A model generated the notes under the pieces. The model ran no database searches. It was not told the DNA's origin and saw only the letters and a program-made list of their open reading frames with translations. Source: Parafannyhessea umbonata (GTDB lineage Bacteria; Actinomycetota; Coriobacteriia; Coriobacteriales; Atopobiaceae). Taken from it: a stretch of 64,000 nucleotides of DNA. Location of the stretch: the NCBI RefSeq assembly GCF_900105025.1, contig NZ_LT629759.1, positions 496,001 to 560,000 on the forward strand, read 5' to 3'. A program made the translations under genes and the position numbers. Shown here piece by piece: positions 2,760 to 64,000 of this stretch; the first letter of the stretch is position 1, and every line of letters starts with the position of its first letter.

Positions 2760-4067
2760 ATGCATTTCGCCAGGCATCCGCACAATCTCGCATCCACGCT
2801 CCTCTCAAAGACGGAAGTCCGCATCGTGGCGGCAAACTTCCTCATGCAGCTGGGACTCCAGGCCGTATACTTCGTGGGCATCATCGGGTGCGCCACCTAC
2901 GACCTGGGAGCCGACGCGCTCGTCGTTTCCTCTCTCGTCCTGGTGCTCAACGTCATGCTCGTGGTCATGAGCCTCATGGCGGGCCCCCTGGTGGACGCCG
3001 TGGGTCCCAGGCGCACGCTCGCGGCCACGCTCTGTGTCATGGCGGTGGCGGGGCTCGCCGGATGGCTCCTGCCGCTGGGCTATGGGCTTCTCTACGTCCT
3101 TGCCGCCGTGCAGGGCGCGGCGTTCGGCGTCGGGAGCACCTCCATGGACGCCTATCCGCGCTTCGTATCCGACGACCCGCGCTATCTGCAGAGGGTCAAC
3201 AGCCTCGTCTATACCGCCACCAGCGTGGCCGTCATCGCGGGGCCGGCGCTCGGCGGCCTCGTCGTAAGCGCGCTGCCCACCAAGTGCGACTTTGCGATTA
3301 TGACGTTCGCCTCGCTTCCGGCGTTCGCGCTGGTCTGGGCCACGGTCGAGAAGATCGCGCCCTCCCGGCAGCGGTCGGCGTCCGACGCCGCTGGTACCAC
3401 CGCCGCCGGCACGGGCGCCGCCGATGCCGAGCCCAAGGCGCGCCCTGCGGGCGGCGCGCGCGGGTTTCTCGCCGACCTTGCCGAGGGCGTGCGCATCACC
3501 TGGGAAAGCGAGGGTCTACGCATGCTCTTCTGCATTGGCTTCCTGGGGTTCTTCGCATACGGCGCGTTCGACTCGCTCGAGTCGCTGTTCTATCGCGACG
3601 TGCTGCACGCCGGCGTGCAGTGGATGGGGTGGCTCTCTGGCATAGCGGGCGTCGGCGGCACGCTGGGGTCGCTCGCGGTGCTGCGCATCCCCTCGCGCAG
3701 GCTCGACATGACGGCGCTGTCTGCGATGCTCCTCGTCACGGGGGTGGGGTCCATGCTGTACGTTGGCACGGGGTCCATCGCGTGGGCGTGCGTGGGCCAG
3801 CTGGTCAGCGGGCTGGGCTTTGGCGCCATGGGGCCAACGCGCACCACGCTTGCGCAGGAGCGCTGCGACGTTGCCCACGTGGGACGCGTCACGTCCGTCA
3901 TGCGCGTTGGCATGAACGGCGCGGGCGTGGTGCCGCTGCTGGTGGCGCCGTTTGTGGCGGGCGCCCTTGGCGTGCAGACAACGCTGTTTGCGGCGTCGGC
4001 CATGGTCGCCATCGTGGCGACGGGGTTTGTGGCGCGCACGCGGGCCCGGCGCGCGCATCTGGGCTAG
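2760..4067 (+). CDS. MFS transporter
   Basis: A major facilitator of 435 residues with two halves of about six membrane helices. Between the halves is a central loop rich in Ala, Gly and Thr (about residues 200-240), longer than usual. Overall it resembles drug-efflux or uncharacterised 12-helix MFS proteins; no substrate is evident. Three in-frame starts exist (GTG 2733, ATG 2742, ATG 2760). The last is preferred because AGAAAGG precedes it by about 8 bases and a positively charged cytoplasmic start (MHFARHPHN) follows. The gene stands before gatC with a gap of 173 bases that contains a 16-base GC-rich direct repeat (4088-4119). Confidence 0.75.
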   Translation: MHFARHPHNLASTLLSKTEVRIVAANFLMQLGLQAVYFVGIIGCATYDLGADALVVSSLVLVLNVMLVVMSLMAGPLVDAVGPRRTLAATLCVMAVAGLAGWLLPLGYGLLYVLAAVQGAAFGVGSTSMDAYPRFVSDDPRYLQRVNSLVYTATSVAVIAGPALGGLVVSALPTKCDFAIMTFASLPAFALVWATVEKIAPSRQRSASDAAGTTAAGTGAADAEPKARPAGGARGFLADLAEGVRITWESEGLRMLFCIGFLGFFAYGAFDSLESLFYRDVLHAGVQWMGWLSGIAGVGGTLGSLAVLRIPSRRLDMTALSAMLLVTGVGSMLYVGTGSIAWACVGQLVSGLGFGAMGPTRTTLAQERCDVAHVGRVTSVMRVGMNGAGVVPLLVAPFVAGALGVQTTLFAASAMVAIVATGFVARTRARRAHLG

Positions 4068-4240
4068 TCCCGGCCCCCGCGCCGGCCGGACCCGGCGCCG
4101 CCCGGACCCAGCGCCGCCCGACACCGCCCCTGGCCCCGCCCAAACGTAACGGTGCGATTGCGCGAGCGCGTGCGCGCGCCCAACGGCGGCCGCGTTTGCG
4201 TATGATGGTCGGGACCAAACGAGCCGCAAGGAGGGCTGCC

Positions 4241-4558
4241 ATGGCACTGTCCCAGGATGACGTGGCGCAGATCGCGGACTACGCGCGCATCGCGCTCACG
4301 CCCTCGGAGCTCGAGCAGATGACGACCTACATGAACGAGGCCGTCGATCTTCTTGAGCCGATTACCCACTATGACCTCGACGGCGTCGACCCCACGTTCC
4401 ATCCCATTGGAGACCTGTCCAACGTGATGGGGGCCGACGTCGTGGACGATTCCGTCCGCGCGCTGCCCATAGGCGTCGCGCTCAAGAACGCGCCGTCCGT
4501 ACACGACCGCTACTTCCGCGTGCCCTCCATCCTGGGCGACTCAGAGGAGGACTTCTAA
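4241..4558 (+). CDS. gatC: Asp-tRNA(Asn)/Glu-tRNA(Gln) amidotransferase subunit C
   Basis: GatC of 105 residues, normal length for the family. It wraps between GatA and GatB and stabilises the GatCAB complex, which amidates misacylated Glu-tRNA(Gln) and Asp-tRNA(Asn) in the cytoplasm. The N-terminal helical stretch (DDVAQIADYARIALT) and the C-terminal VHDRYFRVPSIL are typical. The start is set by a strong SD (AAGGAGGG, 4228-4235) five bases before the ATG. A TATGAT hexamer at 4201 may be the -10 of the operon. Its stop overlaps the gatA start by one base (TAATG), so the three subunits are probably translationally coupled. Confidence 0.95.
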   Translation: MALSQDDVAQIADYARIALTPSELEQMTTYMNEAVDLLEPITHYDLDGVDPTFHPIGDLSNVMGADVVDDSVRALPIGVALKNAPSVHDRYFRVPSILGDSEEDF

Positions 4559-6069
4559 TGGCCAGCCTCGACTCACTCTCTGCCGCGCAGATCGCGGCCG
4601 GTGTCCGCAACGGCGACTTTACGGCCACGGAGGTGGCCCGGGCCGCGCTTGACGCCATAGACTCACGCGAGAAGGACGTCCAGGCTTACCTGCAGGTCTC
4701 CGCGGACCTCGCGCTCAAGGCAGCCGCGCGCACGGACGCGCGCCGCGCCGCGGGCGAGAAGATCGGCCCCCTTGCCGGCGTGCCCGTGGCCTTCAAGGAC
4801 AACATGCACCTTGTGGGCACGCGCACCACCTGCGCGTCCAGGATGCTCGAGGACTACGAGTCCGTGTTCACGGCCACGTGCGTGCAGCGCATGCTCGACG
4901 CGGGCGCCACGCCCGTGGGCAAGGCCAACATGGACGAGTTCGCCTTTGGCAGCACCACGGAGTCGTCCGCGTTCCACCGCACCAACAACCCGTGGGACAC
5001 CTCCCGCGTGCCCGGCGGCTCCTCGGGCGGCTCCGCCGCGGCCGTCGCCGCGGGCGAGGCCACGCTCGCGCTCGGCTCTGACACGGGCGGCTCGATCCGC
5101 CAACCGGCGAGCTTCTGCGGCGTCGTGGGCATGAAGCCCACGTACGGTGCCGTCAGTCGCTACGGCGTCGTCGCGTTTGGGTCGTCCCTCGACCAGGTGG
5201 GCCCGTTCGGACGCTGCGTTGAGGACGTTGCCCTCGCCATGAACGCGCTCACCGCGCCCGGCCGCGACCCGCTCGACTCCACCAGCCAGGACTGCGCCGT
5301 CGACTTCCTGGAGCACCTGGATGACCCGGTAGAGGGTCTCACGGTGGGCGTCGTGCCGCAGCTCATGGAGGCAAAGGGCCTCTCGCAGGAGGTGCGCGAC
5401 GCCCTTGCCGACGCGCTTGACTCCCTGCGCAACCAGGGCGCGCGCGTCGTGGAGGTCGAGCTCCCCAACATCCAGTCCGCCATCGCGGCCTACTACGTGA
5501 TCGCACCGTGCGAGGCGTTCAGCAACCTCGCGCGCTTTGACGGCGTGCGCTACGGCTACCAGGAGCCCAACTGCCAGACGCTGGCCGAGCAGACCTCGCT
5601 TAGCCGCGCGCACGGCTTCGGCGAGGAGGCAAAGCGGCGCCAGATGCTCGGCGCGTACCTGCTTTCCAGCGGCGTGTACGAGAAGTACTACTATCCCGCG
5701 CAGCAGGTCCGCACCCTCATCACGCAGGACTACGCCCGCGCGTACCAGAGCTGCGACGTCATCCTGCTGCCGAGCGCGCCCACCACGGCATGGCGCTTCG
5801 GCGACGTGAGCGACCCCACGCAGATGTACGCGTCGGACATGTTCACGATCTCCAACAACATCTGCGGCAACGGCGGCGTCTCGGTCCCGCTGGGCCTTTC
5901 CGCCCAGACGCACATGCCCGTCTCGGCGCAGCTGCAGGGGCCCGCGTTCAGCGATCGAAGGCTGCTGCGCTTTGCCCGTGCGCTCGAGCGCGGGGTCGAC
6001 CAGGGCCTGGGACTCGGAGGCGGCGCCCCCGTCGCGCCCGCGTTCGCCGGAAGGGGAGGTGACCTGTAG
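4558..6069 (+). CDS. gatA: Asp-tRNA(Asn)/Glu-tRNA(Gln) amidotransferase subunit A
   Basis: GatA of 503 residues, an amidase-signature enzyme that hydrolyses glutamine to supply ammonia for transamidation on GatB. The catalytic Ser-cisSer-Lys apparatus is visible: the lysine in PVAFKDN near residue 80, the Gly/Ser-rich signature PGGSSGGSAAAVAAG near residues 150-165, and SDTGGSIRQPAS just after, with the nucleophile serine in the last segment. Length is normal. It begins inside the gatC stop and ends inside the gatB start (TAGTG), so all three genes form one tightly packed operon. Confidence 0.96.
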   Translation: MASLDSLSAAQIAAGVRNGDFTATEVARAALDAIDSREKDVQAYLQVSADLALKAAARTDARRAAGEKIGPLAGVPVAFKDNMHLVGTRTTCASRMLEDYESVFTATCVQRMLDAGATPVGKANMDEFAFGSTTESSAFHRTNNPWDTSRVPGGSSGGSAAAVAAGEATLALGSDTGGSIRQPASFCGVVGMKPTYGAVSRYGVVAFGSSLDQVGPFGRCVEDVALAMNALTAPGRDPLDSTSQDCAVDFLEHLDDPVEGLTVGVVPQLMEAKGLSQEVRDALADALDSLRNQGARVVEVELPNIQSAIAAYYVIAPCEAFSNLARFDGVRYGYQEPNCQTLAEQTSLSRAHGFGEEAKRRQMLGAYLLSSGVYEKYYYPAQQVRTLITQDYARAYQSCDVILLPSAPTTAWRFGDVSDPTQMYASDMFTISNNICGNGGVSVPLGLSAQTHMPVSAQLQGPAFSDRRLLRFARALERGVDQGLGLGGGAPVAPAFAGRGGDL

Positions 6070-7652
6070 TGAAGAAGCTCGAGGACGTCCTCAGGGACTG
6101 GGAGGCCGTGATCGGCCTGGAGGTCCACACGGAGCTCACCGCTCTCGACACCAAGATGTTCTGCAACTGCCGCCTCTCGCACGACGACCCGCCCAACACC
6201 AACGTGTGCCCCGTCTGCCTGGGCATGCCCGGGGCGCTCCCCGTGCCCAACCGCAAGGCGATCCAGTCCATCGTGATGGCCGGCCTTGCCACAAACTGCC
6301 AGATCATGAAGCACTCCATGTTCTACCGAAAGCACTACTTCTATCCTGACATGGCCAAGAACTTCCAGACCACGCAGGGCCCGGTCGCGTTCTGCATGCA
6401 CGGACACCTGGACCTCGAGGTCGAGGGCGCTGGCGCCGCGGAGCGCCCCGCGTGGGAGGACGTCGCCGCGGACGGCCAGACCCCCATTGCGCGCGCGGCC
6501 GACGGCTCGTACACCGTGCCCATCCGCATCCTGCGCATCCACATGGAGGAGGACGCCGCCAAGATGGTCCACTCCGGCGGCACGGAGGGTCGCATCGCCG
6601 GCGCGTCCGAGTCGTTCATCGACTACAACCGCTGCGGCACGCCGCTCATCGAGCTCGTGACCGAGCCCGACCTCCGCACGCCGGAGGAGGCCCGCCTGTT
6701 CATGGAGAAGCTGCAGCAGACGTTCAAGACGCTCGGCATCAGCGACTGCTCGCTCGAGAACGGCTCCATGCGCTGCGACGGCAACATCAGCCTGCGCCGG
6801 CGCGGCGAGACCCGCCTGGGCACCAAGGCCGAGATGAAGAACATCAACTCGTTCAAGAGCCTGCACGACGCGCTGGAGTACGAGATCTGCCGCCAGGCGG
6901 AGGTGCTCGAGGAGGGCGGCATCATCTACCAGGAGACCCGCCACTGGGAGCCCAGCCGCCGGCGCACCGTCGTCATGCGCGTGAAGGAGACCGCGGACGA
7001 CTACCGCCTGTTCCCAGACCCGGACCTCGCGCCGTTCGACCTCACGGACGACTTCATCGAGGAGGCCCGCTCCCACATCCCGGAGCTTCCGGACGCGAAG
7101 GCGGCACGCTACGCGGCGGATCTTGGCCTCAAGCGCGCCGACGCCCGCCAGATCGCGGGCGACCCGCAGACGGCCGCCCTTTTCGAGGACGCCGTCGCCG
7201 CGGCTGACGCTGCAGGCAAGAAGGGCGGGAAGACCGCCCAGGGCGAGAAGGACGTGGCTAAGCTCGTCTCGACCGTCGCGAACGTGATCGTCAACCTCGT
7301 GCCCGGTCACGCGGGCGTCACGGCGGCGCAGGTGGCATCGCTCTCCGCGCTGCTCGCGACCGACGCCATAACCTTTGCCCAGGCGCGCGAGGTGCTCGAT
7401 GCCGTGGACGGCACGGACCAGGACCCCGAGGCCGTGGTGGACGCGCGCGGCATGCGCCAGGTCACGGACACCTCGGCGCTCGAGCCCGTGGTGGAAGAGG
7501 TGCTCGCGCGCTGCGAGGACCAGGTGCGGCAGTACCACGACGGCAACAAGAAGGTCGTGGGCTACCTGGTGGGCCAGTGCATGAAGGCGAGTCGGGGCCA
7601 GGGCAACCCGAAGCTCTTCAACCAGCTGCTTCGCCAGAAGCTGGAGGCGTAG
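6069..7652 (+). CDS. gatB: Asp-tRNA(Asn)/Glu-tRNA(Gln) amidotransferase subunit B
   Basis: GatB of 527 residues, the tRNA-binding and kinase subunit that phosphorylates the misacylated residue and completes amidation. The N-terminal VIGLEVHTEL, the Cys pairs CNCRL and CPVCLGMPG, and the GatB/YqeY tail domain from about residue 390 are all present. The protein is somewhat longer than the usual 475-500 residues. The extra length is an insert near residues 118-150 (Ala/Gly-rich, before VPIRILRIHMEED) and a Lys/Gly-rich loop in the tail domain (GKKGGKTAQGEKD). The start is a GTG overlapping the gatA stop. Confidence 0.96.
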   Translation: MKKLEDVLRDWEAVIGLEVHTELTALDTKMFCNCRLSHDDPPNTNVCPVCLGMPGALPVPNRKAIQSIVMAGLATNCQIMKHSMFYRKHYFYPDMAKNFQTTQGPVAFCMHGHLDLEVEGAGAAERPAWEDVAADGQTPIARAADGSYTVPIRILRIHMEEDAAKMVHSGGTEGRIAGASESFIDYNRCGTPLIELVTEPDLRTPEEARLFMEKLQQTFKTLGISDCSLENGSMRCDGNISLRRRGETRLGTKAEMKNINSFKSLHDALEYEICRQAEVLEEGGIIYQETRHWEPSRRRTVVMRVKETADDYRLFPDPDLAPFDLTDDFIEEARSHIPELPDAKAARYAADLGLKRADARQIAGDPQTAALFEDAVAAADAAGKKGGKTAQGEKDVAKLVSTVANVIVNLVPGHAGVTAAQVASLSALLATDAITFAQAREVLDAVDGTDQDPEAVVDARGMRQVTDTSALEPVVEEVLARCEDQVRQYHDGNKKVVGYLVGQCMKASRGQGNPKLFNQLLRQKLEA

Positions 7653-8927: not shown

Positions 8928-10226
8928 TTGAAGCGAAATAAGGCCCAAAAAGCTATAGCTGCCGCACTCTCCGCGACGCTAGTCTTCTCAGGCGCAGCGG
9001 TTCCTGCGCTCGCAACTCCCTCCAGCTCCGAGCTGAAGTCCCAGCTGAACGATGCCCAGGCGAAGCTGGACAGCCTTTACGCAAAGGCGGAGCAGGCCTC
9101 CGAGGATCTGAACCAGACGAAGGTCGAGCTCGACCAGACGAACTCCAAGATCGACTCCCTTAACTCCGACATCGAGAAGACCCAGGCGGAGCTGAAGGAG
9201 AAGCAGGCCGTCCTGAGCAAGCGCGTTGCCGCAAACTACAAGTACGGCGACACCGACCTGCTGAGCATCCTGCTTGGCTCCGACTCGTTCGACACGCTCA
9301 CGAGCAACATCGTGTATGCGAACAAGGTGAGCGAGAAGGACTCCAACGCCATCAACGACGTCAAGACGCTCGAGAACCAGCTCTCGTCCCAGAAGTCCGA
9401 GCTCGAGGAGCAGAAGGCTTCCCAAGAGAAGCTCGTGGCCGACAAAAAGGCTCAGAGCGAGGCGCTGAACGCGCAGTCCCAGAAGGCCCAGGACTATGTG
9501 AACAGTCTGAGCGCGGAGATGCGGCAGGCTCTGGCGGAGGAGCAGGCCGCGCGTGAGGCAGCCGCGAAGAAGGCCGCCGAGGAGGCCGCCGCGAAGGCGC
9601 AGGCCAACGGTGGCGAGTACTACAAGTCCGAGGGCAACGCTAACGCGCAGAGCAACTCGAACTCCGGCAAGAGCAACAGCTCGAACTCGAACTCGAACAA
9701 GGGCAACGCCAACACCGGTTCGAACGCGAACAAGGGCAACGGCGGCTCTGCGTCGAACTCCGGCAGCAGCTCCAACAAGGGCAACGGCGGCTCTGCGTCG
9801 AACTCCGGCAGCAGCTCCAACAAGGGCAACGGCGGCTCTGCGTCGAACTCTGGCAGCAGCTCCAACAAGGGCAACTCCGGCATCTCCGGCGCATGGCGCA
9901 ACACCGTGATCGCAGCGGCGACGCGTATGGTCGGCGGCACCTATGTCTGGGGCGCCTGCAACCCCGGCTCCAAGACGTTCGACTGCTCGGGTCTCACGAG
10001 CTATGCGTACGGTGTTGCCGGCATCAGCATCAGCCACAGCTCCGCGTCGCAGGCTTCGTTCTGCACCAAGCCGATCTCCCAGGCGGAGCCCGGCGACGTC
10101 GTCTGGCGTCCCGGTCACGTGGGCATCTACATTGGCGGAGGCACCACGATCGAGGCGTTCTCGCCTAGCCAGGGCATCGGCTACGGCAGCGTGAGCAGCT
10201 TCTCCAGGTGTGGCTCGCCCGTATAG
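8928..10226 (+). CDS. Secreted NlpC/P60 peptidoglycan hydrolase with coiled coil
   Basis: A 432-residue exported protein starting at TTG, with an AGAGG-type SD about 6 bases before it. Residues 1-30 are a signal peptide (basic start, hydrophobic core, PALAT cleavage region). Residues about 33-210 are a long coiled coil rich in Glu, Lys, Gln and Ala, as in CwlO/RipA-type hydrolases. Residues about 225-320 are an Asn/Gly/Ser linker containing three identical 15-residue repeats. The last 105 residues are the NlpC/P60 domain with the catalytic Cys in FDCSGL and the His in RPGHVGIYIG; the third position, often His, reads Glu in TTIEAF. It probably cleaves cell wall peptides during division or separation, with the coiled coil as regulator. 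Neighbours are unrelated. Confidence 0.9.
   Translation: MKRNKAQKAIAAALSATLVFSGAAVPALATPSSSELKSQLNDAQAKLDSLYAKAEQASEDLNQTKVELDQTNSKIDSLNSDIEKTQAELKEKQAVLSKRVAANYKYGDTDLLSILLGSDSFDTLTSNIVYANKVSEKDSNAINDVKTLENQLSSQKSELEEQKASQEKLVADKKAQSEALNAQSQKAQDYVNSLSAEMRQALAEEQAAREAAAKKAAEEAAAKAQANGGEYYKSEGNANAQSNSNSGKSNSSNSNSNKGNANTGSNANKGNGGSASNSGSSSNKGNGGSASNSGSSSNKGNGGSASNSGSSSNKGNSGISGAWRNTVIAAATRMVGGTYVWGACNPGSKTFDCSGLTSYAYGVAGISISHSSASQASFCTKPISQAEPGDVVWRPGHVGIYIGGGTTIEAFSPSQGIGYGSVSSFSRCGSPV
9735..9869 (+). repeat. Three 45-base tandem repeats in hydrolase linker
   Basis: Three head-to-tail 45-base units (9735-9779, 9780-9824, 9825-9869), nearly identical at the DNA level with one silent change seen in the third (tcc to tct). 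Each encodes GNGGSASNSGSSSNK. Near identity at synonymous sites points to recent expansion or continuing homogenisation. Confidence 0.95.
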
Positions 10227-56077: not shown

Positions 56078-57607
56078 CTATGAGATGCCGTTGACTGCGA
56101 GCTCCACGACCCTGTAGGCCCCGTCATACACTTCGATGGCGTTTGCCTGCTCGATGCGATCGCACATGAACGAGATGAGGTGCCTGTCCGATTGAAGCGC
56201 GTCGATCATTGACAGGACCTCGGCGGTGTCGTCCATCTCGTACGTTCCATCTCCGACCTCTGCGGCGCGAATCGCACCCCAGGCCTCATGGCCCCCGACG
56301 CGATGAATCATTAGCTTTGGGACCGGGTAGAACGAGAACTCGCTTGGCTTCGTTACCAGGATGTCCGAGCAGCGCATGAGGACGTTCGAGCTGTAGACGG
56401 CCGAGAAGATATCCGCGTCGCAGAACGCATGGATTCCGGAAACGTCCTCATCAAGTGCGCGTTTCGCGAAGGCGCTCACCTCCGAGAAGTCGTCAAAGTG
56501 GATCTGTGCGAGCTCGGAGAGCCCGTGGACGGACGATACGAGGCCGTCCCAGACGTCCCTGTGGTCGCCCACGTTTACGAAGAGCGTCGCCTCATTACGA
56601 CTGACATAGGGGATGAGGTGCCCGATTATCGAGGCGAAGAGATCTTGCTGTGCGCCTGCGCCTCCCACTGAGATGAGGTAGCGCACCGCCCCGCCGCCCA
56701 GCGCGCGTTCCCTACGCGCCGTACAGTCACGGCCGATGTTGCTTACGATCTCGTGATCGACGTAGTGCCCCGTGTAGACGAGAGAGCCCTCTGGCATCGG
56801 CTTAAGCTGACGTGACGGATCCATGCCGCGTAGCTGGTGGTACCCGAGATAGGCGCTCGGCGTCTGAACGGTGTGAATCGACCCCTCCGCAAGGTGAAGC
56901 GCCATCGGCCAGTTGTCTGGGATTGCGTTTACGACGTGAGTGAGACCGGCGTGTACCGCTGCTTGGGATGGCCACACATGCGTACCGATGTAGGGGACGT
57001 CTCGAGGGAGGTCCTGAAAGAGCGGGATGCAGAGTTCGGCGTTCTTCTGGTCTCCAGAATTATAGGAGAGCTTCCTGAAGCCCTCGCTGTTCAGCGGTTC
57101 CCAGAACAGTCTGTCGAAGGCACCTACCCTTTGTGAGAGGCGCGAGCCCATGGAGTAGAGCCCATTCTGGTATTCGATGACCTTCGACCCCGTGCTTTCC
57201 TTGAACGAGGCGAGGTCGAGCCAATAGGGCGTGTAACCCATCGCGTGCGCTGCGGAGGCCATGGCCATCGAGATGCGATAATGGCCGAATCCCATGCGGA
57301 TGTTACCAACGACCACGGGGCTTCCGCCAGCGCTTGGGACCGTCTTCTCGGTCTTCTGGGGCAGCGGCTGTGCCGCCGCGTCCGCGCGGATGTCCAAGGC
57401 GTCAGAACCGTCTGCGAGCACGAGGTCCCTGACGCCCAGCGTCTCGCTGATGACCGGCACGTCTGCGCCCTTGAGGTGATACACGGCGTTCGAGTCGTCC
57501 CCAAACTTCCTGAGGAACTTCTCCTTCGAACGGACCGCCTTCCTGTAAGTGGCCTCGTCCTGGACGTTTCCGAAGGCACTTTTCGCCCTGTCGGTTCCGG
57601 TCGTCAT
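56078..57607 (-). CDS. GT28-like glycosyltransferase homologue (predicted)
   Basis: A 509-residue protein of GT-B appearance. Near residue 100, VVVGNIRMGFGHYRISMAMA is like the GxGH acceptor loop of MurG/MGDG synthase-type enzymes. The C-terminal half has YLISVGGAGAQQDLF and CSDILVTKPSEFSFYPVPKLMI, like the nucleotide-sugar half of GT28. No signal peptide. GGAGG five bases before ATG 57607 fixes the start. It is divergent from the TetR gene, with twin palindromes between them, so it is likely co-regulated with the galactoside genes. Donor and acceptor unknown; family call is by eye. Confidence 0.55.
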   Translation of the reverse strand: MTTGTDRAKSAFGNVQDEATYRKAVRSKEKFLRKFGDDSNAVYHLKGADVPVISETLGVRDLVLADGSDALDIRADAAAQPLPQKTEKTVPSAGGSPVVVGNIRMGFGHYRISMAMASAAHAMGYTPYWLDLASFKESTGSKVIEYQNGLYSMGSRLSQRVGAFDRLFWEPLNSEGFRKLSYNSGDQKNAELCIPLFQDLPRDVPYIGTHVWPSQAAVHAGLTHVVNAIPDNWPMALHLAEGSIHTVQTPSAYLGYHQLRGMDPSRQLKPMPEGSLVYTGHYVDHEIVSNIGRDCTARRERALGGGAVRYLISVGGAGAQQDLFASIIGHLIPYVSRNEATLFVNVGDHRDVWDGLVSSVHGLSELAQIHFDDFSEVSAFAKRALDEDVSGIHAFCDADIFSAVYSSNVLMRCSDILVTKPSEFSFYPVPKLMIHRVGGHEAWGAIRAAEVGDGTYEMDDTAEVLSMIDALQSDRHLISFMCDRIEQANAIEVYDGAYRVVELAVNGIS

Positions 57608-57637
57608 CGATTCCTCCTTGACGGTGCGGTCAACGGC

Positions 57638-57654
57638 TGATAGTCTGACTATCA
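57638..57654. promoter_or_regulatory. TetR operator candidate 1
   Basis: Perfect palindrome TGATAGT-CTG-ACTATCA, one base apart from a second related palindrome, 43 bases before the TetR start and 30 before the divergent gene start. Confidence 0.75.
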
Positions 57655-57655
57655 A

Positions 57656-57676
57656 AGTGATAGATAGACTATCACT
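57656..57676. promoter_or_regulatory. TetR operator candidate 2
   Basis: Perfect palindrome with 8-base arms AGTGATAG and CTATCACT around ATAGA. Shares the TGATAG/CTATCA half-sites with the neighbouring palindrome, which suggests two repressor dimers bound side by side. Confidence 0.75.
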
Positions 57677-57697
57677 CACTTGGAGAGGGAGTCAAGT

Positions 57698-58378: not shown

Positions 58379-58452
58379 GCCGGCGGATTCGGATGCCTGT
58401 GTGGTGGGCTTGTCTGCGGCGGCGAGGAAATGCTGCCGGAAAGGGACGTGAT

Positions 58453-59835
58453 ATGGGCGAGAAGAGACTTGCGAACGGTACCGTGATCAGGAAGTTCGCT
58501 ATTGGGCAGCTTGGTTGGGCGATTCTCTCTGGAATCATAAGCAACTGGCTCGTCTACTACTACATGCCCTCCGAGACGCTCGTCAAGCAGGGGATGACGG
58601 TCTTCATCACGCAGGGCATCGTGTTCGCGGGCCTCACGGTCATCGGAATCATCACGGCGTGCGGGCGTCTCCTCGACGGCTTCATCGATCCGTTCATCGC
58701 CTCCAAGTCCGATTCACTTGCATGTCCGCTCGGGCGCAGGATACCTTTCATGAGGAAAGCGGCCGCGCCATTTGCCGCAATGACCGTCTTGGTGTTCGTC
58801 ATTCCGGGAACGTCAAGCGTGGTGGCGAACAACGTCCTACTCTTCGTGTGCCTGATGCTTTTCTATATAACGCTCTCGCTCTACTGCACGCCCTTCAACG
58901 CGCTCATCCCCGAGCTCGGCCGAACGCAGGAGCTGCGCGTCAACCTCTCGACCTACATCTCGGTAACCTATTTCGTGGGCACTGCGGCCGCATACCTCGT
59001 TACCGCGTTGGCGGGTATCCTCGAGCCATCTCTGGGTCCCGTCACGAGCTTCAGGGTCACGGTGGCCATGCTGGCGGTCGTTGCCCTCGCGTGCATGCTC
59101 GTACCCGCCTTTGGTATCGACGAAAATCTCTATGCGGACACTCAGCCGAGCTCGACACCCATGGGGCAGTCCGTCGCGAAGACGTTCAAGAACCGCGAGT
59201 TCCAGATCTTCGAGGGCTCCGACGTCCTGTACTGGGTGTCAATCACGATGTTCCAGACGGGGCTGCCATATTACGTCACGGAGCTGATGGGCTTCGACGA
59301 CTCCTGGACGTTCGTCTTCTTCGCTGCCATGACGCTCATCTCCCTCATGTTCTACGCACCCGTCAATGTTCTGGCAAAGCGCATCGGCAAGAAGAAGCTT
59401 GTCGCCTTCGCATTTTTCTTCTTCTGCCTCGCGTTTGCCGTGACGTCGGTGTGTGGACAGTTCGGAGTGCCTCAGATTGCGTGGGGTGTGGTCGTGGCCT
59501 TCCTGGCAGCGGTTCCCATGGCCATACTGGGAATCCTGCCCCAGGCGGTGCTCGCTGACATCGCCGAGGCAGATGCCGTTCAGACGGGAGAGAACCGCGA
59601 GGGTATGTTCTATGCCGCACGTACGTTCAGTATGACGCTTGGGCAGACCCTTGCGATGGTGCTCTTCACCTCGATCTCCTCCACTGCCGCAGGTGGTCTG
59701 GGGTATAGGCTCACCGCAATCGTTGCGACGGCGTTCTGTCTGATAGCGGGTCTTGTGTTCACGCGCTACCACGAGGGGAAGGTGCTGGGCGTCATTTCCG
59801 CACGGGGCGCCGATGACGTGTCTGCGTCCGAGTAA
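58453..59835 (+). CDS. GPH family sugar:cation symporter (MelB-like)
   Basis: A 460-residue, 12-helix glycoside-pentoside-hexuronide symporter. It shows GWAILSGIISNWLVYYYMP in helix 1, GRLLDGFIDPFIASKSD (the conserved cation-site Asp), CPLGRRIPFM in the first cytoplasmic loop and NREGMFYAARTF in the second half. The neighbouring alpha-galactosidase points to melibiose, raffinose or another alpha-galactoside. GGAAAGGGA lies 6 bases before ATG 58453, which itself starts a GGGCGAGAAG copy. Confidence 0.85.
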   Translation: MGEKRLANGTVIRKFAIGQLGWAILSGIISNWLVYYYMPSETLVKQGMTVFITQGIVFAGLTVIGIITACGRLLDGFIDPFIASKSDSLACPLGRRIPFMRKAAAPFAAMTVLVFVIPGTSSVVANNVLLFVCLMLFYITLSLYCTPFNALIPELGRTQELRVNLSTYISVTYFVGTAAAYLVTALAGILEPSLGPVTSFRVTVAMLAVVALACMLVPAFGIDENLYADTQPSSTPMGQSVAKTFKNREFQIFEGSDVLYWVSITMFQTGLPYYVTELMGFDDSWTFVFFAAMTLISLMFYAPVNVLAKRIGKKKLVAFAFFFFCLAFAVTSVCGQFGVPQIAWGVVVAFLAAVPMAILGILPQAVLADIAEADAVQTGENREGMFYAARTFSMTLGQTLAMVLFTSISSTAAGGLGYRLTAIVATAFCLIAGLVFTRYHEGKVLGVISARGADDVSASE

Positions 59836-59913
59836 AGTGGCAACAATGGGAGTGGTGCCGTCGCTGTGACGTGCATGGGCTTTGATTGTTGCACATGGGG
59901 AGGATGCGGGAAG

Positions 59914-61953
59914 ATGGACCTCAATCCCAAGTTTCAGATAGCATGGAGAGTGCCCGACGGCGGGCGGCGGGTAACGTATGTCTCGGATCAGGTCCCGACG
60001 TTTGGGGCGGATTGCAGGGATTTGGATGTTACCGTCGAACGCGACGGGGACGTCTGGCACGTCTGGGTAGACCCCGAGTATGACCTCACGGTAGAGTTCG
60101 CAACGGCAACGGTCTCGCTCGACCTCCAACATGCCGATGCCCTTTTTCTCAACGGTTATAACTCGTGGACCGACTCCTGGGAGCGCTCTCCGCGGGCAAA
60201 TATGCATGGGTTATGGGGGACTCCCCGCAGCGTCGTGGACCACTGGGTTCTCGACGCATCGGGGGATTATCGCTTCGCGCGTCAGGACCCTCGCTTCGGG
60301 CATCAGCATGGCGTGGGGTATGGCTATTTGAGGTTCGGTCAAGCCGTCTCGCTGTTTGGTGACTGTAAGCCGGACACTGGACTCACTGTCATCTACGAGG
60401 ACCTTTCCGAGAACACCATCACTCTGGAGAAGGAGGGCCCTGACAGGATCCTTGCCGCTGGTGAGCGGGTGGAGGTCCTCACCCTTGCGCTGGTCGAGGG
60501 GACGCTCCAAGGCGCCTTTAGCCGATACGTGGAGCTGATGGGTGTGAAACGTCGCCCCGCGTACCCAATCGTGGGATTCACGAGCTGGTATCGCCATTAC
60601 GGCGACATCGACGCGGCGACCTTGAGACGAGATCTCGTGGGGGTGTCCGACATCCTTCTCGCCCAGCCCTTGGAAGGAGTCCTGCCCGTCTTCCAGGTAG
60701 ACGACGGGTATGCGAAAGTGGGGGACTGGACCAGGCCCGACCTCGAACGCTTTCCGGCGGGCATGGGGGCGGTCGCTGACGACATACGCTCGGCGGGACT
60801 CGTGCCCGGGCTCTGGATGGCACCCTTTGTGTGCGAGAAGGACTCGCATACCTTCGTCGAGCATCAAGACTGGCTACTAAGGGATACCCAGGGACATCCT
60901 GTCATGAGTGGTTCGCACTGGAGCGGCGGCTATGCCCTCGACACGCAAAACCCTGAGGCCCGCGATTACGTACGGACGTCGCTTGGCACGGCCACACGGA
61001 CTTGGGGCTTCGAACTGCTGAAGCTCGACTTCCTGTATGCCGCCGCCATGGTTCCACATGCCGGATTGAACCGCGGCGAGCTCATGGCAGACGCCCTCGA
61101 TCTGCTCCGTGAGAGCGTCCCGGACAAAACGTTGTTCGACTTTTGCGGCGTGCCGGTCGTGAGTGCCTTCGGTCGTTGCGAGTACTGCCGTGTAGGCTGC
61201 GATGTGGGACTCGACTGGAACGACACGCTGCACATGCGTATTACGGGTCGCGAGCGCGTCAGCACCAAAAACAGTCTTCACAACACGAAGGGCCGTGCAC
61301 ACCTCAACGGTGTGACCTTCTTGAACGACCCCGACGTCTTCTTTCTTCGAAGGGACGTGAAGATCACGGATTCGCAGCGTACCCGTCTGCTTTCGGCGGA
61401 CTCGCTGCTGGGCGGAGTGCTATTCACGTCAGACGACATGGGGGCGTGGGACTCCCGTCAGATGGGCATCTTCCATAATGCGCTTGACACCTTTGTCCGG
61501 CGCTCCCGTGAGCTCGTGCCACGGGAGGAAGGTTCTGGAGGGCTCGAAACCAATGACGATTCGCGTGATGAAGAGGAGGAGTCCGACGGGCCGAGCTCGG
61601 CTTTGGATGCCGAGGTTGTGACATCCGACATGACCCAACCAATGCCGATCGTCGGCATGACCCAGCTCATGCCCGCAGTGGACAAGACCGATGCCCCGCC
61701 GGCCTCTGACGAGACGGGGGTAGTGCCCGGGCCTGACATGACGCAGGCGATGGAAGGGCCGGACATGACGCAGGCGATGGAAGGGCCGGACATGACGCAG
61801 GCGATGGAAGGGCCGGACATGACCATAGTCGACCGGCCGCTTCTGGCCGCAATCGAAGCTGCGGAGAGGGAGGGCAACTCACCAAAGGAGGGTGACGCCT
61901 TGCGGGAGTCGGACGATACGTCTCTAGAGACCGAAGGGAATACGCATGAGTAG
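59914..61953 (+). CDS. GH36-type alpha-galactosidase with acidic repeat tail
   Basis: A 679-residue glycoside hydrolase, clan D. N-terminal beta domain, then a barrel with FTSWYRHYGDID, FQVDDGYAKVGDW, GLWMAPFVCEKDS, LLKLDFLYAA (nucleophile Asp) and CRVGCDVGLDW (acid/base Asp). It should release galactose from alpha-galactosides imported by the GPH carrier; there is no signal peptide, so it acts inside the cell. After about residue 530 the usual C-terminal beta domain is missing or reduced and an acidic tail of about 150 residues follows, with MTQ-containing repeats. ATG 59914 has GGGGAGG 10 bases upstream. The stop overlaps galK. Confidence 0.82.
   Translation: MDLNPKFQIAWRVPDGGRRVTYVSDQVPTFGADCRDLDVTVERDGDVWHVWVDPEYDLTVEFATATVSLDLQHADALFLNGYNSWTDSWERSPRANMHGLWGTPRSVVDHWVLDASGDYRFARQDPRFGHQHGVGYGYLRFGQAVSLFGDCKPDTGLTVIYEDLSENTITLEKEGPDRILAAGERVEVLTLALVEGTLQGAFSRYVELMGVKRRPAYPIVGFTSWYRHYGDIDAATLRRDLVGVSDILLAQPLEGVLPVFQVDDGYAKVGDWTRPDLERFPAGMGAVADDIRSAGLVPGLWMAPFVCEKDSHTFVEHQDWLLRDTQGHPVMSGSHWSGGYALDTQNPEARDYVRTSLGTATRTWGFELLKLDFLYAAAMVPHAGLNRGELMADALDLLRESVPDKTLFDFCGVPVVSAFGRCEYCRVGCDVGLDWNDTLHMRITGRERVSTKNSLHNTKGRAHLNGVTFLNDPDVFFLRRDVKITDSQRTRLLSADSLLGGVLFTSDDMGAWDSRQMGIFHNALDTFVRRSRELVPREEGSGGLETNDDSRDEEEESDGPSSALDAEVVTSDMTQPMPIVGMTQLMPAVDKTDAPPASDETGVVPGPDMTQAMEGPDMTQAMEGPDMTQAMEGPDMTIVDRPLLAAIEAAEREGNSPKEGDALRESDDTSLETEGNTHE
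61729..61824 (+). repeat. 27-base tandem repeats in alpha-galactosidase tail
   Basis: Three full 27-base units (61729-61755, 61756-61782, 61783-61809) and a partial fourth (to 61824), encoding GPDMTQAME. The units differ at one base only. Two weaker MTQxMP copies precede them, at about 61630-61680. Confidence 0.95.
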
Positions 61954-63166
61954 CAGCGCCATGACCATTGAGTGCCTCGATACGCTTGTAAGGGAGTATG
62001 GGGATGAGTTTGGGAAGCCTGATGGCCGCCTGCTTGCCGTGGTGGCGCCCGGGCGTACGGAGCTTGCGGGTAACCACACCGACCATGAGGGTGGGCAGGT
62101 TATCGCGGGTGCGGTCAACCGTTACGTACGAGGCGTTTTCCATCCCAACGATAGCGGTCTCATACGCGTGATGAGCATTGGCTACGGGCTTGTCGAGGTG
62201 GACTGCTCCGATTTAAAGCCCCGCGCGGACGAGAGGAACACGTCTGCCGCCATCGTTCGTGGGCTGCTTTCCGCGTTTCGAGAGATGGGCTTCGGTGGCG
62301 ACCGACTGGGGTTCGATGCAGTCGTCACGAGTGAGGTTCCCTCTGGCTCTGGCCTCTCCAGTTCAGCTGCCTTCGAGCTAGAGATCGCCCAGGCAATGAA
62401 CTGGCTGTGGGCGGACGGCAGCGTGTCCGCGATGAGACTCGCGCAGATGTCACAGTTTGCGGAGCGCGAGTACTTCGGAAAGCCGTGCGGACTGATGGAT
62501 CAGGCCGCGGTCGCCGTCGGCGGAATCGCGCACATGGACTTTGAGGATGATGCCGCGCCAAAGGTGGAGCGGCTCGGCTTCGACTTCGTGGAGAACGGCT
62601 TCGCGGTCTGTCTTGTCTCGGTTGGTGCGGACCATTCAGCGAACACGGCGGATTACGCTGCGGTTCCACGGGAGATGCAGGACGTTGCGCGTGAGTTTGG
62701 ACATGAGCGCTTGCGCGAAGTGCGCGAGTCCGACGTCATAGGGAGCCTTCCCTCGCTTCGCGCGAATCTGGGGGATCGCGCGGTCTTGCGTGCGCTGCAC
62801 TACTTCCGTGAGGAACGTTTCGTTCAGAACCGCGCGGACGCCCTTCGCGCCGGCGACATGGCCGCCTTCCTCGAGCTCACGCAGCGCTCGGGCGCCTCTA
62901 GCGCAATGTACCTGCAGAACGTGTCGATCGGAGGCTCGCCCGAGCAACCAGCCATGATAGCGCTTGCCGTTGCTGAAGAGCTGCTTGGCGGTCGAGGGGC
63001 GGCGAGGATCCACGGCGGAGGTTTTGGGGGGACGATTCAAGCCTTCGTCCGGCTCGACGAGGCAGACGAGTTCTGTCGTGCGATGGACGAAGTCCTCGGA
63101 GGCAAGGTTTCCGCACGCTATGACATTGACCAAGAGGGGGCGAGAGCGCAGTGGCTGGAGAGCTAA
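61946..63166 (+). CDS. galK: Galactokinase
   Basis: A 406-residue GHMP kinase. Motif 1 is GRTELAGNHTDHEGG, as in Gram-positive anaerobe GalK; motif 2 PSGSGLSSSAAFELE binds ATP; motif 3 is IHGGGFGGTIQAF. It phosphorylates galactose to galactose-1-phosphate. It overlaps the alpha-galactosidase stop by 8 bases and the galT start by 16, so expression is coupled. Confidence 0.94.
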   Translation: MSSSAMTIECLDTLVREYGDEFGKPDGRLLAVVAPGRTELAGNHTDHEGGQVIAGAVNRYVRGVFHPNDSGLIRVMSIGYGLVEVDCSDLKPRADERNTSAAIVRGLLSAFREMGFGGDRLGFDAVVTSEVPSGSGLSSSAAFELEIAQAMNWLWADGSVSAMRLAQMSQFAEREYFGKPCGLMDQAAVAVGGIAHMDFEDDAAPKVERLGFDFVENGFAVCLVSVGADHSANTADYAAVPREMQDVAREFGHERLREVRESDVIGSLPSLRANLGDRAVLRALHYFREERFVQNRADALRAGDMAAFLELTQRSGASSAMYLQNVSIGGSPEQPAMIALAVAEELLGGRGAARIHGGGFGGTIQAFVRLDEADEFCRAMDEVLGGKVSARYDIDQEGARAQWLES

Positions 63167-64000
63167 CGGAGCAAGTTGGGGCGTCGTCGTCCAGGCTTGT
63201 GGCTTATGCCGTTACGCATCACATCATCGATTCGGGAGATGAGCGCTGGGCCTATAACCGCCTACTAGAGTGCTCGGGGCAGACGTCGCCTGGGCCCATA
63301 GACTCCCTGCAGGCGATGGAGCAGGTTCTTCTCGACGGGTATGACTTTGAGGACGATCTTGCCACTTTGGCGGAGGCGGCGGTACGCTGCGGCGCTACGC
63401 AGGACAGCGCAACGGGAAGGGACCGCGTCTGCATGCGACTCATGGGGTCGATTATGGCAAGGCCGTCCGAGGTGAGTAGACGCTTCTGGTCGATTGCGAG
63501 AGACGAGGGGACAGCTGCGGCAACCGATTGGTTCTATAGGTTGTGCTGCGATGTCGACTACGTCCGGCGGTCCGCCATCGCGAGGAACCTCAAATGGTCC
63601 TGTTCCACGCGCTGGGGCGACCTCGAGATCACCATAAACAAGTCGAAGCCCGAGAAGGACCCGCGTGACATCGCCGCTGCGGCGACGGCGGGCGTGGGCG
63701 AGAAGTACCCCGCATGCGCGCTCTGTCGTGAGAACGAGGGTTATGGTGGCAGGGCGGCATCGGATGCGGGGGGACATGCCGCTCGGCAGAACCTCCGCAT
63801 CGTCCCTATTGCGCTCGGAGGAGAGGAATGGGGGCTTCAGTACAGCCCCTACGCCTATTTCGAGGAGCACTGCATCGTGATGAGCGACAGACACAGGCCG
63901 ATGCACGTGGACCGTGAGTCTCTGGGATGTCTGCTTGACTTCGTGAGCCAGGTCCCGCACTACTTCGTGGGGTCGAACGCAGACCTTCCCATAGTCGGGG
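63151..64000 (+). CDS. galT: Class II galactose-1-phosphate uridylyltransferase (partial)
   Basis: The first 283 residues of a Gram-positive-type (class II) GalT, cut by the window end. It opens LVAYAVTHHIIDSGDERWAYNRLLE, then FWSIARDEGTAAATDWFYRLCCDVDYVRRSAIARNLKW, CALCRENEGYGGRAASDAG and YFEEHCIVMSDRHRPM, all typical. It converts galactose-1-phosphate and UDP-glucose to UDP-galactose. The start is GTG inside the galK end. The frame is open to base 64000. Confidence 0.92.
   Translation, partial: MAGELTEQVGASSSRLVAYAVTHHIIDSGDERWAYNRLLECSGQTSPGPIDSLQAMEQVLLDGYDFEDDLATLAEAAVRCGATQDSATGRDRVCMRLMGSIMARPSEVSRRFWSIARDEGTAAATDWFYRLCCDVDYVRRSAIARNLKWSCSTRWGDLEITINKSKPEKDPRDIAAAATAGVGEKYPACALCRENEGYGGRAASDAGGHAARQNLRIVPIALGGEEWGLQYSPYAYFEEHCIVMSDRHRPMHVDRESLGCLLDFVSQVPHYFVGSNADLPIVG

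Follow-up and report, generated by a model that had tools for sequence, protein, structure and literature searches.

The window analysed here is a 64,000-nucleotide stretch of the Parafannyhessea umbonata genome. It holds a GH36 alpha-galactosidase gene whose product continues past its catalytic barrel into an acidic, repetitive tail. The gene belongs to a galactoside operon (TetR, MFS, GH36, GalK, GalT) that is present in the same bacterial family. The features are as follows.

58393-59835, plus strand: MFS_2 sugar transporter, adjoining the GH36 gene upstream
59914-61953, plus strand: GH36 alpha-galactosidase with C-terminal tail, 679 amino acids from the ATG, the frame being open from GTG 59866
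59914-61509, plus strand: N-terminal beta-rich domain and barrel, residues 1-532, delimited from the AF2 model and the alignment to the Thermus thermophilus enzyme TtGalA
61510-61950, plus strand: acidic, predicted-disordered tail, residues 533-679, of low pLDDT and without a Pfam or solved-structure match
61630-61845, plus strand: unbroken run of eight 9-residue units, all with Thr as their second residue
61738-61818, plus strand: three exact MTQAMEGPD copies of 27 bp each, identical in DNA
61813-61863, plus strand: terminal module PDMTIVDRPLLAAIEAA, with PDxTxVDxPLxxAIEAA common to three species and a weakly predicted helix
61946-63166, plus strand: galactokinase, its start overlapping the end of the GH36 ORF
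63151-63999, plus strand: galactose-1-phosphate uridylyltransferase, truncated by the window edge

The neighborhood was compared with that of ten tail-less loci, on some of which the contigs are short. The MFS gene adjoins GH36 in all ten, GalK and GalT are also present in six, and the full set from TetR to GalT in five. A DUF6937-DUF6938 protein (56078-57679, minus strand) is encoded divergently from the TetR-MFS-GH36-GalK-GalT group and has a match in nine of 12 related loci compared. The tail occurs in three species, the genomes of which we label G000 (the window genome), G030 (a sister species) and G052 (a third species, a MAG). In G052 (locus L066), GH36 adjoins an ABC1-like gene, and at E up to 1e-5 the 14-kb stretch around it showed none of DUF6937, TetR, MFS, GalK and GalT. 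The window also has a separate tandem array at 9729-9875 (45 bp, 3.3 copies, 99% matches), the unit of which reads, in one of its frames, as many Ser, Gly and Asn codons.

The tail-bearing ORF spans 59866-61953, with its stop at 61953. Its start is likely to be ATG 59914 rather than GTG 59866: in the sister gene, an in-frame stop lies between the counterparts of these two positions, shortly before the matching ATG. The Pfam Melibiase match (PF02065) scores 40.6 bits, above the cut-off of 27, at E 2e-10 and covers residues 280-388 only. In the AF2 model, made with 15 sequences, a beta-rich N-terminal part is followed by the barrel, the final helix of which spans residues 514-532, and GH36 structures rank top in the fold comparison (Z 34-37). 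TtGalA (6lcl, 6lcj) matches best both in structure (Z 36.9 and rmsd 2.6, with model residues 1-529 aligned to 437 of its 455 resolved residues) and in sequence (E 1.2e-39). TmGalA of Thermotoga maritima (1zy9, 5m1i), likewise a GH36 enzyme, follows at Z 34.8-34.9 and is also among the nearest solved relatives by sequence. The Asp residues of KLD (D372) and TSD (D507) are invariant in all 15 aligned sequences and, by analogy to GH36, are taken as the putative nucleophile and acid/base, respectively. No C-terminal beta-sheet domain was found past the barrel in the AF2 model, where no strand follows residue 505 and the tail pLDDT is below 50. Inspection by eye revealed no signal peptide, and the enzyme is probably cytoplasmic, as the operon logic suggests.

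The preliminary description of this DNA had pointed out an acidic tail of about 150 residues, and the tail indeed has 147, with 38 D+E and seven K+R, beginning where the barrel ends near 61509. The MTQPMP, MTQLMP and three exact DMTQAME motifs that it listed are all present, and they turn out to be parts of a larger repeat of eight 9-residue units, in the order MTQPMPIVG, MTQLMPAVD, KTDAPPASD, ETGVVPGPD, MTQAMEGPD (three times) and MTIVDRPLL. The seven successive Thr spacings are each exactly nine residues. Among the six distinct units, Thr is the sole invariant column; M1, P6 and D9 come next, each in four of six. At the DNA level, where near-identity of the units had been noted, the three MTQAMEGPD units are identical, and TRF finds a sole array in the tail region (61729-61823; 27 bp, 3.5 copies, 98% matches, score 183).

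The tail is predicted to be disordered. pLDDT is below 50 for all but one of residues 537-679, with block means of 24-45 over 541-679. Folding the tail alone (three sequences) gave a mean pLDDT of 54.3 and a pTM of 0.15. A weak helix is predicted at 641-654 in the full AF2 model and at 109-121 in the lone tail. Against Pfam at E up to 1, the window tail gave nothing and the two other tails one sub-cut-off row each (E 0.26 and 0.018). A profile of the three tails matched no solved structure at E up to 1. A folded domain hidden in the tail was considered and rejected on account of the poor lone fold, the lack of a Pfam match in the window tail and the lack of a structure-profile match.

The tail had been proposed to substitute for the C-terminal beta domain, a view that the homologues do not bear out. 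We searched 121 family genomes, drawn out of 140 in the family, and 78 of them match the GH36 protein. Only the matches in the three genus members extend past query residue 559 (to 695, 691 and 681). As an unrelated tail would be invisible in the column of match ends, the C-termini of 45 loci were inspected (30 from the family search plus 15 of 16 named loci, the two sets overlapping). Of these, 37 end between 9 residues before and 15 after the same post-barrel point, and two MAGs titled Ruminococcus and Oscillospiraceae reach 25 and 26 residues past the barrel end. The remaining six have at least 60 residues past the barrel: five come from the three species that have the tail (with L043 and L044 duplicating the contigs of L002 and L003), and one is L054. 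Among the 30 family-search homologues so inspected, the tail is found in three, all of the genus of P. umbonata. The tail is thus genus-restricted among the genomes searched. From these sequence comparisons, it is an addition to GH36 and not a replacement of the beta domain, because homologues that lack it, many of them surrounded by the same operon genes, end once the barrel is complete. The exception L054, from a Coriobacteriia MAG, carries a GH36 match (4001-5494) and a GalT match (5540-6361) in one frame (ORF 3752-7123, 1123 codons), possibly a fusion of two pathway enzymes.

The known enzymes place this addition in context. The resolved chain of TtGalA stops about where the window barrel stops, and its deposited sequence, 479 residues, is without an acidic repeat tail. 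The TmGalA chain, 564-575 residues, continues beyond the matched stretch (match end 478-489) into what we take to be the beta domain. A C-terminal beta-sheet domain after the barrel is common in GH36 (PMC7688924); since TtGalA, as far as its chain is resolved, also stops there, we take this domain as non-defining for the family. RgAgaSK is also a GH36 enzyme with a C-terminal addition and serves galactoside use, as the window enzyme would, but there the addition is a sucrose kinase domain of about 215 residues and not a motif tail (PMC7688924).

Motifs related to the tail units occur in other proteins. A first search of the window genome gave five matches, four in the GH36 tail and one in a 57-codon ORF that was taken as chance. 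The DNA-level pattern [DE]-[FLIMV]-T-[QE]-[PA]-M gave six, four and zero matches in the three genus genomes (zero in G052), and its reversed control none in each. Seven of these ten lie in GH36 tails, one in an SDR-like enzyme and two, both DLTQPMP, in a linker within a Zn-ribbon protein. Besides this polar linker, the Zn-ribbon protein has what by eye resembles a membrane segment, and it ends in a NADase_transloc domain. LTQPMP is kept in it in all three species within a diverged linker, and the protein of the third species, 55% identical overall, reads NLTQPMP. When this third linker was shuffled, a 6-mer common to the other two recurred in nine of 20,000 trials (5-mers in 171, 4-mers in 2517). 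A Zn-ribbon linker from another genus (L148) has NDLTQPL.

A broader pattern, [DN].T.[PA][LM], has 18 occurrences, spread over 14 ORFs, in a sample of 501 kb and 377 ORFs that includes the window and four loci not randomly chosen. Six of these sites have a flanking hydrophobic fraction of at most 0.17: four in the GH36 tail, one in the Zn-ribbon protein and one in another ORF (DATAAM). The sample undercounts, since its rough gene calling missed the FHA/Zn-ribbon ORF. Over all 140 family genomes, the strict DNA motif gave 34 matches against two for the reversed control. We have set this ratio aside as support, since the contexts inspected (28 of 34) are mostly apparently folded proteins: 12 fall in one 606-codon ORF family, three are ABC-ATPase-like and three asparaginase-like (names by eye). 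The clear linker case is L076, a minus-strand ORF of 379 codons from another genus (genome G020). Its DLTQPM and DLTQPL sit in a polar region flanked by hydrophobic segments, and it is possibly a further motif carrier.

A Thr motif is also found next to FHA domains. A Zn-ribbon/FHA protein has DTTMPL ahead of its FHA domain in the window genome and DATVPL and DATLPL in the other two species. The pattern [DE].T..[LIM] is present in 15 of 18 linkers of the FHA/Zn-ribbon family, counting some nearly identical sequences and some motifs that lie where the FHA domain begins; the shuffle mean is 2.1, and none of 5000 shuffles reached 15. The 18 linkers were extracted from 30 loci, 12 of which gave none. 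In a set of small FHA proteins (30 loci, L181-L210), all 12 N-termini extracted have ATxIFR[MV]P ahead of the FHA domain.

Kinase and FHA genes, which the preliminary description suggested seeking, are present: the window genome has three Pkinase and four FHA matches over the cut-off. This is a weak criterion, since matches over the cut-off also occur in control genomes, six of 14 for FHA and eight of 14 for Pkinase. In one of the kinase ORFs, a membrane-like stretch is followed by repeats that by eye resemble PASTA. Close to this ORF are two FHA ORFs as well as one FtsW/PBP-like and one PP2C-like ORF, these last two named by eye. No genetic link was seen between the GH36 gene and any FHA gene. 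Two of the FHA proteins have relatives in 100 of 101 and 61 of 61 family genomes, respectively, with or without the tail. The machinery alone therefore does not account for a tail confined to one genus.

The reading that we tentatively put first, at somewhat below even confidence, is that the tail serves as a multisite Thr acceptor and docking platform for kinase and FHA recruitment. The disordered acidic tail gained in the genus of P. umbonata would be a multisite platform of linear motifs. A membrane kinase with PASTA-like repeats would phosphorylate the Thr of its D-x-T-x-x-[M/V] repeats, and FHA domains, among them perhaps that of the Zn-ribbon/FHA protein, which has its own D-x-T-[MVL]-P-L site, would bind the phosphorylated residues. 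Such binding could tether the enzyme to the membrane or to a signaling assembly, and several copies could give avidity or a graded response. The earlier suggestion of Thr phosphorylation and FHA reading is thus partly sustained: the kinase and FHA matches, the motifs beside FHA domains and in a polar linker, and the invariant Thr are in its favor, but the FHA proteins are family-wide regardless of the tail, and the residues flanking Thr give a mixed picture across the species.

Comparison of the three tails brings in the alternatives. All three have DxTxVDxPLxxAIEAA, their clearest common stretch (the MAFFT alignment splits the last part of this end module in the third species, and the sharing is taken from the sequences themselves). 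Given that this module also holds the only predicted helix of the tail, it may be that the module docks to a partner independently of phosphorylation, for example to a pathway enzyme or a membrane protein, with the repeats as a variable spacer. The third species, in whose tail no 27-bp array was found, suits this idea as well. Phosphorylation-independent docking nevertheless leaves unaccounted for both the retention of Thr in diverged units and the recurrence of LTQPMP in the Zn-ribbon linker, and we regard it as rather unlikely.

Equally doubtful is a neutral or biophysical role, in which 27-bp replication slippage in a tolerated disordered tail has produced an acidic bristle that perhaps aids solubility but that nothing reads specifically. 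At the same place, the sister species has a 27-bp array of its own, in 3.6 copies, with a different unit, MTQPMPDID; this and the DNA-identical units of the window suit slippage. The low pLDDT and the low identity of the other tails to the window's (37% and 35%) agree with a tolerated tail, and so does the inconsistency between species of the residues flanking Thr. The flanks were tested on distinct windows with 5000 shuffles and nine offsets per species. In G000, D/E is at -2 in six of ten windows (22 shuffles reach this), and hydrophobic residues are at +3 in five (53) and at +2 in four (261), an enrichment that may lean on unit copying. In G030, hydrophobic +3 is seen in seven of 18 (271, weak), D/E at -4 in seven (296) and D/E at -2 in six (773, not enriched). 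In G052, where the Thr sites are instead EETQVW, NVTSVV, EPTVLA and GETEVYVM, hydrophobic +2 stands out in six of nine (2) and +1 in four (110), with no enrichment of +3, in one (3010), or of D/E at -2, in four (960). As the enrichment differs between species, the Thr sites do not form one strict consensus. Against a bristle without a reader stand the presence of the tail in all three genus genomes with an end module in common, the Thr invariant in six distinct units and the related motifs in other linkers.

A sequencing or assembly artefact, or a wrong frame, is very improbable: identical DNA units like those of the window can be misassembled, but the frame is open through the tail in all three genus genomes, and a different 27-bp array sits in the same place in the sister species.

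Returning to the kinase/FHA platform, a more specific form of it can be put forward, which we consider rather unlikely. The copy number of the 27-bp unit would tune FHA recruitment of GH36, alongside a membrane-type Zn-ribbon/F5-8C protein with [DN]-L-T-Q-P-M-P, and the tail would be a self-expanding phosphothreonine array.

Parallels to such a platform exist. GarA has an ETTS Thr site N-terminal to its FHA domain that is kinase-phosphorylated and controls metabolism; there the FHA protein has the site and binds enzymes, whereas here the enzyme itself would have many sites (PMC12321487). StkP, a PASTA kinase, has seven phosphothreonines in its juxtamembrane domain, a linker segment, but these belong to the kinase and not to a metabolic enzyme, and the consulted portion of that source does not mention a 9-residue repeat (PMC12077195). 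The predicted StkP motif, also given there, has Asp at -3, not -2, and fits none of StkP's own seven sites (PMC12077195). In the open PMC literature, no report was found that joins a glycoside hydrolase or alpha-galactosidase with FHA and threonine phosphorylation, and what the consulted part of it yielded on FHA domains and kinases in coriobacteria was work on Bifidobacteriales. P. umbonata itself is named in four articles there.

Should the tail prove to be phosphorylated and FHA domains to read it, PASTA-type kinase signaling would be wired directly to carbohydrate breakdown in a rumen or gut actinobacterium. The motif D-x-T-x-P-[ML] would then offer an experimental handle on kinase and FHA targets in Coriobacteriia, and the 27-bp unit would provide a natural valency series.
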